A stretch of DNA of 64,000 nucleotides from positions 35,504-99,503 of the forward strand of contig NZ_NEGZ01000003.1 in assembly GCF_002127585.1 (NCBI RefSeq), given 5' to 3'. The notes under the pieces are model-generated. The model made no database searches. It had not been told where the DNA came from and worked only from the letters and a program-made list of their open reading frames with translations. Positions 41,616-56,901 of the stretch are shown here, piece by piece. Positions within the stretch are counted from its first letter, which is position 1. Each line of letters opens with the position of its first letter. Both the position numbers and the translations under genes were made by a program. The DNA is from Janthinobacterium sp. GW458P. Lineage in GTDB: Bacteria > Pseudomonadota > Gammaproteobacteria > Burkholderiales > Burkholderiaceae_D.

Positions 41616-42353
41616 TCTTCGACTGTAAATTATCCACCGCTTGCACACATCTTATACGCGGCTTGCCCACCGCTTATCCGGCGCTTTTGCACAGGCTTAT
41701 GCACAGCCCTGAATCCGGCGCAGGGCTGATGGCGTAACGCTTTTCTTCCATGAAAAGCCCGGTCTGCCGCCAGCGTGCCCGGCAACGTAGCCTGATTCCC
41801 TGCCACCGATATTTTCACCAACAGGCACAGCGACTTTTGCACCGCTTTCACACAGCTTGCCAACAGGTTGTTGCACCACTTATCGACACACTTATCCACA
41901 TCGTCCGCCCGCGCCATCCGGGACCTGCGCCCCCAGGCAAGCCGCGGCCGCTTCCGTGCGCGCAGCGACATGGCGCAGAACGCCCCGTTCAGGCACTTGA
42001 GTTTGCTGAAAGCATGACTTGATATGGAACAATACTTGTCCACATGTTTTCAACCCTCTTTTCCACAGGCTTACCCACAGAGCACACTCGAGCACAAGGC
42101 GGGAAAGCACACTTATCCCCACTTATGCAAAGGCTATGCAGTGCTTATCCGCAGGCTTACGCACAGACTTATCCACATTCGATGGGTAAACCGGCTTGCC
42201 GGGCTGCAGAATGGCGGAAAGTGCAGGGGAGAACCACGACAGGCGCATGGCAGGCGAAGCCGGCAACTTTACACACAGCTTATGCATGGGCTTGTCCACA
42301 TGCTTATGCAGTACTTACTGATGGGCTTACCCACATAGTTATCCACAAAAAAA
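41616..42353 (+). repeat. array of DnaA-box-like repeats (GGCTTATCCACAG type)
   Basis: This gene-free region between the lrp-like gene and glmU contains at least three consensus DnaA boxes TTATCCACA (41892-41900, 42169-42177, 42339-42347). It also has near matches: TTATCCACC 41630, TTATGCACA 41697, TTATCCCCA 42113 and TTATCCGCA 42145, plus several TTACCCACA and TTACGCACA variants. All are in the same orientation and many sit in a GGCTTA-CCACAG context. DnaA binding, as in a titration locus or part of an origin, is the best explanation. Confidence 0.7.
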
Positions 42354-55644: not shown

Positions 55645-55740
55645 GCTGTTTTTACAGGTTTTTTGCATTGCAAAACGGTTTACAGGGTGAAAACAGCCGT
55701 TTTGGCGACTTTTCCACCGTTCGCGTTTGTCTCTGTGTTT

Positions 55741-55959
55741 TAAATAAAGATGTATACATAAAAATAGTAGTGATAGTAAACGGCCATTTTTTTGTGGATA
55801 AGTCGGTATACCATCGAAAAATCATCGACTTAGCGCACAAAAAAGTAGGCGTACATGCATTGTATCTACGGAGGACTTGTTTGGGATAAAAATTGGCTTG
55901 TGGACAAAGATCGACTTTTCCCACATCTCATCCTGTGGATATGCAGGCACTTATCCACA
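55741..55959. repeat. origin-like module 1
   Basis: The order is an AT-rich tract (55741-55764), TAGTAGTGATAGTAA (55765-55779), 13 bases, then the DnaA box TGTGGATAA (55793-55801). TGTGGATAT (55934-55942) follows, then the opposite-facing TTATCCACA (55951-55959). Read on the minus strand this is box, spacer, repeating ACTA triplets, AT-rich DNA: the order of a basal unwinding system with a DnaA-trio. Confidence 0.7.
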
Positions 55960-56210
55960 TAGCCAAGCAAAAATCACGGTTTTTCTTGCTGTCGTGGCAT
56001 GTTTAATGTGCTTCGCATGTCGTGATCCCTGTTTGGCAATCAACGTTGAGCGATCACGAACGCTGTTCTTTCGCGAACATTGGCGTCCAGGTGATTGCTG
56101 GAAGACGGTTTGGCAGTGGGTCGCGCTGTTGCCGTTGGCTCTTTTTTTGACGTTTTTTGTATGCTTTTTGGAAATATCCCCGGACTTCCGTTTTTTTTGT
56201 CGGTTTACAA

Positions 56211-56422
56211 TAGATCTATATATAAAAATAGTAGTAATAGTAAACGCGCTTTTTTCTGTGGATAAGTCGCTTTTTTTCAACAGGATCAATCGTTTACGCG
56301 CAAAATAAAGCGTGCATAATCGCTGTATCACGCGAGGAGCAAAATTGTATAAAATGCGGGCCTGCGCATAACTTCGTGTTTACGCACAAGTCATCCTGTG
56401 GATATCAAGTGACTTATCCACA
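56211..56422. repeat. origin-like module 2
   Basis: The AT-rich tract contains GATC (56213-56216) and runs ATATATAAAAA. TAGTAGTAATAGTAA follows (56229-56243), then 13 bases, TGTGGATAA (56257-56265), TGTGGATAT (56397-56405) and TTATCCACA (56414-56422). It has the best-preserved trinucleotide run. Box distances (140 and 17 bp) match the other modules. Confidence 0.7.
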
Positions 56423-56690
56423 ATCGTTGTAAATTCCCCCTCTTTTTGACATCGAATTGCTTGCTGGCTCTGTGCCTGGTCAGGTCTGTTGGCGTTTCCA
56501 TTTTGCAAAACGGTTTGGCAGTGCAGTGTGCGTGATGCCGGCCGTGCCGGTTTTCGTCGCTCAGTTGTTGGCTGGATTTTTTTTTTGCGTACTGAAAGCC
56601 GCTTGCGGTTTTTTTTACAGGCAAAGACTGCAGGGCTTTCTTTTTTTCGAAGGGCAGGCAAAGCGGGCGTTGTCGGGTTTACCTTAACAA

Positions 56691-56901
56691 GATCGTATAC
56701 AAGAATAGTAATAGTAGTTAACGGCGGCATCTTCTGTGGATAAGTCCTGATTTATCCTTGTAAACAATCGCTTGGCGTACGGATAAGCGCTGAGTAAGCG
56801 TTGTATCTGCATGGGATGGTTTTGGGATAAAAAAAAGTCATCCAAAAAAAATTTCGTTTACTCACATATCGTACCTGTGGATATCCATACGGTTATCCAC
56901 A
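56691..56901. repeat. origin-like module 3
   Basis: GATCGTATACAAGAA is followed by TAGTAATAGTAGTTA (56706-56720), 14 bases, TGTGGATAA (56735-56743), TGTGGATAT (56876-56884) and TTATCCACA (56893-56901). TTTGGGATAAAA between the boxes is shared with module 1. Confidence 0.7.

Follow-up and report, generated by a model that had tools for sequence, protein, structure and literature searches.

The 1.2-kb gap between mtnN and a GMC-type oxidoreductase gene is very probably the chromosomal replication origin (oriC) of a Janthinobacterium. We further consider it likely that this origin is built of three tandem units of the Escherichia coli type and works by the mechanism that we propose in the Discussion.

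Results

Three tandem units in one intergenic gap

The window, by which we mean the whole stretch of 64,000 nucleotides that was analysed, corresponds to positions 35504-99503 of its contig in a draft genome of 156 contigs and 6.28 Mb (G000). The G+C content of the window falls from approximately 66% (1-34000) to approximately 60% (34000-64000). The gap is bounded by the start of mtnN (MTA/SAH nucleosidase, minus strand) and by the GMC-type oxidoreductase gene (plus strand), which are divergently transcribed. On the parS side of the region are mnmG, rsmG, a parA-like gene that scored below the cut-off of its model, parB, and atpA, and on the opposite side are glmU and glmS. The gap contains three diverged tandem units, M1, M2, and M3, of 219, 218, and 219 bp (Table 1), which align over approximately 219 bp with a pairwise identity of 55-61% (250 bp compared). 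Each unit has the same layout: AT-rich DNA and DnaA-trio-like triplets come first, then a perfect R1-type DnaA box and an IHF-like site; weaker boxes follow, and a perfect opposed box closes the unit. The R1-type boxes of all three units read TGTGGATAA on the plus strand and TTATCCACA on the minus strand. A sequence-only reading of this DNA had proposed three box-triplet copies, and they are located where it placed them, with the triplets ending 13, 13, and 14 bp from the boxes at 55793, 56257, and 56735; the copies run on beyond this part, to 55959, 56422, and 56901. The AT-rich DNA that it noted beside the triplets is also present: the leftmost 19-21 bp of the units have an AT content of 86, 86, and 68%, and the window one of 36%. 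The window contained no Rfam match at gathering thresholds and no tRNA by ARAGORN, and an RNA explanation was therefore dropped.

Table 1. Features of the three-unit region and of the second DnaA-box cluster (window positions; offsets are counted from the start of the R1-type box)
Feature	Position	Strand	Remarks
Second DnaA-box cluster	41630..42347	+	17 boxes (up to 2 mismatches), + only; M1 lies about 13.4 kb to the right
Origin unit M1, 219 bp	55741..55959	+	AT-rich element, triplets, R1-type box, IHF-like site, weaker boxes, opposed end boxes
M1 triplets TAG-TAG-TGA-TAG-TAA, TAGTAGTGATAGTAA	55765..55779	+	third imperfect (TGA); 13 bp to box
M1 R1-type DnaA box, perfect TTATCCACA	55793..55801	-	
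M1 IHF-like site	55820..55832	+	+27; one mismatch to WATCAANNNNTTR
M1 DnaA box ATATCCACA	55934..55942	-	one mismatch; half of end pair
M1 end box TTATCCACA, R4-like	55951..55959	+	+158; opposed to R1
Origin unit M2, 218 bp	56205..56422	+	
M2 DnaA-trios TAG-TAG-TAA-TAG-TAA, TAGTAGTAATAGTAA	56229..56243	+	13 bp to box; satisfies published BUS rule
M2 R1-type DnaA box, perfect	56257..56265	-	
M2 IHF-like site	56284..56296	+	+27; one mismatch
M2 DnaA box ATATCCACA	56397..56405	-	
M2 end box TTATCCACA	56414..56422	+	+157
Origin unit M3, 219 bp	56683..56901	+	
M3 triplets TAG-TAA-TAG-TAG-TTA, TAGTAATAGTAGTTA	56706..56720	+	last imperfect (TTA); 14 bp to box
M3 R1-type DnaA box, perfect	56735..56743	-	
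M3 IHF-like site	56762..56774	+	+27; one mismatch
M3 DnaA box ATATCCACA	56876..56884	-	
M3 end box TTATCCACA	56893..56901	+	+158

The region contains 6 exact DnaA boxes and 10 with at most one mismatch. In 2000 shuffles of the region, produced as first-order Markov chains and not as exact dinucleotide permutations, the corresponding means were 0.009 (maximum 1) and 0.29 (maximum 3), and the trio-plus-box pattern was absent from all 2000. A cluster of high-affinity DnaA boxes beside AT-rich DNA, as is characteristic of a chromosomal oriC, is thus what the region holds. A scan for the trio-plus-box pattern over 1.336 Mb (the window plus stretches of G000, G004, and G383) found the units only, with 3 matches in the window, 3 in G004, and 2 in G383. 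The 60-nt core model, which was made from 41 same-genus sequences (14 genomes) with the three units of the window among them, likewise matched the window exactly three times at E <= 1.

The published rule for a basal unwinding system (BUS), as given in the available part of the survey, asks for at least three NAN triplets and a gap to the DnaA box of at most 16 bp (PMC8287927). The strict NAN runs of at least three triplets stop 22 (M1), 13 (M2), and 17 bp (M3) from the box. M2 satisfies the rule, with a gap of 13 bp and seven consecutive NAN triplets; M1 and M3, with strict runs of four and six triplets, narrowly miss it, and between the run and the box lie one imperfect triplet plus TAG-TAA in M1 and a TTA in M3. 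The earlier description of three full unwinding modules is therefore borne out in layout for all three copies and under the strict rule for M2, and it fails under that rule for M1 and M3, which resemble a BUS but fall outside the class. This slightly lowers the odds that several units operate. Each copy is nevertheless more than a BUS, because its layout is that of an E. coli-type oriC.

A fixed IHF-like spacing shared with E. coli oriC

IHF-like sites were called against WATCAANNNNTTR, which we take to be the IHF consensus. In all three units of the window, a plus-strand site with one mismatch begins exactly 27 nt from the start of the R1-type box (+27), the ATATCCACA box lies at +140/141, and the perfect opposed box TTATCCACA lies at +157/158, as an R4-like box would. 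The +27 site was present with 0-2 mismatches in 114 of 114 same-genus units, so the distance is fixed across the genus; pooled, these units, which are related to each other and not independent, averaged 0.96 mismatches at +27 compared to 3.11 at the next best offset. The G004, G383, and G000 stretches contain 30 exact boxes. Triplet runs accompany 5 of these, and an IHF-like site at +27 was seen for each of the 5 and for none of the remaining 25. When the oriC of E. coli MG1655 was measured likewise, an IHF-like site with two mismatches lay at +27 (several such matches occur, but no other falls between R1 and the next box, at +55); a reverse box was located at +141 and R4 at +180. Strict DUE-R1 and R1-IHF spacing is reported as required in E. 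coli in the available text of PMC5742627.

Chromosomal position

The region occupies the position of a replication origin. As the sequence-only reading had remarked, dnaA is not nearby: the two are 336-375 kb apart in 13 complete same-genus genomes and 568 kb apart in G002. We searched for dif and parS with patterns that we take to be their consensus. Expressed as a fraction of genome length, the region lay 0.487-0.500 from dif in 12 of the 13 genomes (0.377 in G033), and dnaA lay 0.434-0.454 from dif in the same 12 (0.325 in G033), so that all 13 genomes have dnaA farther than the region from the point opposite dif. G002, scored separately from the 13, agrees, with the region at 0.495 from dif. 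Beyond the 13, a further 12 genomes were tried, of which G071 and G330 had no dif match and were unscored; in the ten with a match (one of them same-genus), the units lay nearer than dnaA to the opposite-dif point in 10 of 10, and this includes nine of nine genomes of other genera, with margins that were small in several. In G281 the units are 0.306 from dif, compared to 0.175 for dnaA. With these values of 0.377 for G033 and 0.306 for G281, dif is far from lying opposite the origin in both genomes, which suggests either unequal replication arms or an effect of assembly or rearrangement.

In all 15 genomes searched, the region had its nearest parS match at a distance between 6.2 kb (in G033) and 12.2 kb, and no parS match was found at dnaA in these 15. 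The cumulative GC-skew minimum, which had been named as a check on the origin claim, was computed over 400 contiguous kb of G004 and fell at 353,712, which is 1.2 kb from the region (354,865-356,071) and not at dnaA (1 kb). In 20 stretches spread over the same genome, the skew was positive in 8 of 9 between 0.65 and 3.4 Mb and negative in 8 of 8 between 3.6 and 6.0 Mb, and the three stretches around dnaA were mixed. In G383, which belongs to another genus, the minimum at 424,617 is approximately 10 kb from the units, in a flat part of the curve. The region therefore sits at a switch of GC skew and opposite the terminus, as expected of a chromosomal oriC. The comparison with the dnaA locus, also suggested earlier, was carried out in G000: one exact and one near DnaA box lie just upstream of dnaA (L040:8613 and 8661), and the core model has no match there. 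This is what autoregulation, more than an origin, would predict. GC skew, dif, parS, and the lack of the core motif at the dnaA locus together support the original identification of the region as oriC.

Conservation within the genus

The three units are conserved separately. Over 28 aligned same-genus loci, the mean pairwise identity was 0.936, 0.943, and 0.904 for M1, M2, and M3 and 0.763 and 0.747, with many gaps, for the two spacers. The 19-nt triplet blocks were invariant at 19/19, 19/19, and 18/19 positions (M1, M2, and M3; 28 genomes). Unit length was 217-219 bp in 109 of 114 units, the other five having no match to the end-pair pattern, and the start-to-start spacing varied from 392 to approximately 1100 bp. 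A short element with the core ACGGTTT is found upstream of each unit at a varying distance (window positions 55668-55681, 56099-56118, and 56503-56523); its two spacer copies are conserved above the surrounding spacer, and the copy left of M1 is not.

By exact boxes, three units were present in 36 of 39 same-genus loci. The R1-type box carries one mismatch in M1 of G010 and in M2 of G019, which indicates that a unit can decay, and G021 carries two units. Of 40 same-genus genomes, 14 of which had supplied the sequences for the core model, 38 matched the model three times; G021 matched it twice, and G037, an assembly that is 82% complete, had no match.

Distribution and history of the units

A pattern scan of 84,980 named genomes returned 70 stretches, of which, by title, 65 belong to Oxalobacteraceae genera or to the family, 2 to Paucimonas (placed in Burkholderiaceae by NCBI), and 3 to Burkholderiaceae only (two of them MAG records). 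Units were sought in 43 of the 70, the omitted 27 being Janthinobacterium stretches and one MAG record; 17 of the 43 (one Janthinobacterium) have three units, and the rest have fewer (two or one), several of them truncated where the locus ends. These counts leave aside unit-finder output that was spurious or partial (L125, L130, L160, L169, L173, and L175). Within the family as delimited in the genome collection, the core model matched 340 of 392 genomes and 32 of 44 genera. Three matches were found in 98 genomes, two in 202, one in 40, and none in 52, so that most of the sampled genomes (300/392) have two or three, with the clustering of the matches confirmed in part of the genomes only. The family and order searches used strict filters, under which weak matches may be missed. 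Given that many genera have two matches, 40 of the 340 matching genomes one, and 52 of the 392 none, three units are not obligatory.

In 28 single-contig genomes from 13 other genera, chosen among those with a core match, at least two matches lay within 3 kb of each other in 28 of 28 (one G068 match lies elsewhere). By plain coordinate difference, dnaA is 20-790 kb from the units in 18 of these other-genus genomes, and it is 50-721 kb from them in G040, G066, G191, and G201. Ten of these genomes were examined in detail: the IHF-like site was at +27 with 0-2 mismatches in 24 of 24 units, and an end box with at most one mismatch was at +156 to +160 in 23 of 24. Two units are inverted relative to each other in some genomes. 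In G191 and G201, which belong to one genus (L183 and L182), the unwinding sides face each other with the R1 boxes 0.7 and 1.1 kb apart, and in G161 (L184) the unwinding sides face away from each other, 2.9 kb apart. Eleven loci of Duganella, Rugamonas, and other Oxalobacteraceae have 2.6-3.4 kb of other DNA between two units (L116, L122, L129, L132, L134, L139, L144, L146, L157, L158, and L168).

In a draw of 300 genomes from the whole order, 22 matched the core model, 8 of them inside the family, and the best of the 14 outside scored 33.5 bits. Seven of these 14 were examined (G507, G545, G482, G444, G421, G590, and G607). In G507 and G545 the single unit resembles E. coli in its spacing, with IHF at +27 and the end box at +180/182; G444 and G421 each have one unit with the best IHF-like site at +26; and in G607 no clear unit was found. 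Two box-triplet units occur in G482, from another family of the order (L193), both with an IHF-like site at +27, and in G590, without such a site at +27. Repeated units are therefore not strictly confined to the family. Among the loci examined in detail, inside the family and outside it, false minor hits of the unit finder (L189, L190, L193, L196, and L197) were left out of the unit counts.

A tree of 73 units from 27 loci, from which units cut by locus ends were dropped, placed the M2 units of Janthinobacterium, Rugamonas, and Duganella in one clade (100/100) and grouped their M3 units at lower support (92/88); the third units of Massilia and Telluria join the M3 side. The M1 units were not recovered as one clade in this tree, and the units of Paucimonas and Glaciimonas pair within species on long branches. 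The grouping of M2 and M3 by position indicates that these units are older than the three genera Janthinobacterium, Rugamonas, and Duganella.

A second DnaA-box cluster

The second cluster of DnaA boxes in the window (Table 1) is flanked by an Lrp-family gene and by the 3' end of glmU. The boxes were found in the same place and direction in all four other genomes examined (G004, G033, G002, and G383), and in G004 the cluster is split by inserted DNA. A DNA search found the cluster in 18 of 40 same-genus genomes; it missed G033 and G002, where the box scan found it. In the portion of PMC5742627 available, E. coli datA is described as having essential boxes that point one way and a place near the origin. 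The cluster is like datA in its one-direction boxes, origin-proximal place, non-coding sequence, and one IHF-like site, a likeness by features. It may be a datA-like element of this lineage, a candidate site for inactivating or titrating DnaA.

Discussion

We propose that DnaA would occupy the perfect R1-type box and the opposed far-end boxes in each unit and that IHF would bend the DNA at the fixed +27 site, carrying the DnaA oligomer to the AT-rich side. DnaA could then engage the triplet strand (plus) and melt the DNA to its left, after which helicase would load and forks would depart in both directions, with the product of the unlinked dnaA gene acting in trans. Binding of DnaA and IHF in this arrangement is predicted from their sites in the sequence. 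We infer that more than one unit can open and that the copies, instead of giving three starts in each cycle, would make the origin redundant or steepen its DnaA threshold.

How many of the units open is the point on which the most plausible readings differ. One is a compound origin, in which two to three complete E. coli-type oriC units, each able to unwind individually, have been maintained by selection throughout the age of the family; we put this forward tentatively, as a real possibility. The main rival, which we regard as possible but doubtful, is that the region is oriC with one working unwinding unit (M2 or M1), the other two serving as regulatory arms that bind DnaA and either titrate it or feed it to that unit. 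That M2 alone satisfies the strict BUS rule, with the triplets of M1 and M3 imperfect, would fit a single working unit, as would the natural box mismatches in single units of G010 and G019 and the divided origins that PMC4285127, in its available part, describes with two box clusters and a DUE in one. Spacers 1 and 2 have GC skews of +0.096 and +0.073, which is the leading-strand composition in the M1-to-M3 direction and is positive in 92% of 36 loci, and the skew is -0.023 in the 500 bp to the left, with +0.055 in the nearest 72 bp. This gives a hint of a start on the M1 side, a weak one because the spacer sequence may itself be under selection. However, titration needs boxes and not triplets, yet within the genus the triplet blocks of every one of the three units vary no more than its boxes. 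The IHF offset is also kept in all three, and two whole inverted units, as in G191, G201, and G161, would be odd for passive arms.

Readings in which the region is not the chromosomal origin fare much worse. The genome papers of Janthinobacterium HH01 and Herbaspirillum seropedicae, in the parts available, set the origin by GC skew and the dnaA-dnaN-gyrB position, and the region is rich in DnaA boxes, as a DnaA reservoir of the datA or DARS type would be if replication started at dnaA. We consider this very improbable, given that GC skew, dif, and parS all prefer the region over dnaA and that the G000 dnaA locus does not have the core motif; by skew, dif, parS, and motif, an origin at dnaA was rejected. 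The essential boxes of datA, moreover, point one way according to the available text of PMC5742627, whereas those of the three-unit region are opposed and lie beside triplet runs, and so do not show the single direction of functional boxes that marks datA. It is more improbable still that the repeats are DnaA-regulated promoters of the mtnN and GMC-oxidoreductase genes, between which, divergent as they are, the gap sits, or a mobile or plasmid-derived origin. Two units are separated by 2.6-3.4 kb of other DNA in the eleven loci listed above, the units were nearer than dnaA to the opposite-dif point in all nine other-genus genomes scored, and the region had no match among 72,556 plasmid records at the sensitivity used, on which a plasmid origin was rejected.

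To our knowledge, the usual picture is of one unwinding element per bacterial oriC, which a compound origin would contradict. Divided bacterial origins, too, are described with the unwinding element in one subregion in the available part of PMC4285127. A family whose origins carry two to three conserved candidate unwinding units would amount to a natural experiment. It bears on the number of opening sites required by an origin, on the sharing of helicases between two forks, and on the way in which once-per-cycle control is kept with several sites. If the compound-origin reading is true, each of the inverted units in some genera may load helicase for one fork. Our results also argue for an origin position other than dnaA in Oxalobacteraceae genomes for which dnaA has been used, which matters for copy-number and growth-rate analyses.

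In the open-access literature searched, we found no account of an origin made up of several complete unwinding units and no analysis of an Oxalobacteraceae origin beyond the HH01 and H. seropedicae placements. According to the available text of PMC8287927, 1755 of the 2070 origins surveyed had BUS sequences, screened to one candidate in almost all, with 3'-GAT-5' as the commonest trio and 10-13 bp as the commonest gap. Since the published program almost always kept one candidate per genome, repeats would not have stood out. The units described here share with the BUS of Bacillus subtilis and others the order of box, spacer, and trio and the strand. They differ in that three stand in a row, each tied to an IHF-like site, and in that M1 and M3 fail the strict rule.

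The divided origins of B. subtilis and Helicobacter pylori, like the region described here, have more than one DnaA-box cluster per origin. In these the DUE lies in one subregion, as far as the available part of PMC4285127 describes them, whereas in our region triplets and an AT-rich element accompany every one of the three clusters and dnaA does not separate them, an arrangement other than that of a bipartite origin. DoriC lists two putative origins each for Ralstonia pickettii and Acidaminococcus fermentans, according to the accessible portion of PMC4403523. These resemble our case in having more than one predicted origin per chromosome, close together in A. fermentans, and differ in that they are tied to duplicated dnaA or lie 291 kb apart (PMC4403523, same portion), compared to three homologous short units in one intergenic gap. 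In chromosome 1 of Cupriavidus metallidurans CH34, the skew switches approximately 90 kb from dnaA, and the switch adjoins a stretch of 213 nt that contains three perfect DnaA boxes (PMC2864759); the available text describes this one short stretch, without repeat units, trios, or IHF spacing. With these three cases, both a separation of origin and dnaA and multiple origins had already been proposed in other bacteria, so far as the parts of the sources available go.

A close likeness is to E. coli oriC (DUE - R1 - IHF - R5M/R2/R3 - R4), in which the order and orientation of the elements are the same as in the units described here; both place an IHF-like site at +27, counted from the R1 box, and both end in a perfect box opposed to it. 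E. coli oriC adjoins mnmG, which is also near the region here, and E. coli dnaA lies away from oriC, as the region does from its dnaA. The differences are that three tandem units are present here and one there, that the far box is at +157/158 here and at +180 there, and that the TAG/TAA triplet run is clearer in our units than in E. coli oriC. The common +27 spacing suggests that the unit predates the split of beta- and gammaproteobacteria and could be copied like a cassette.
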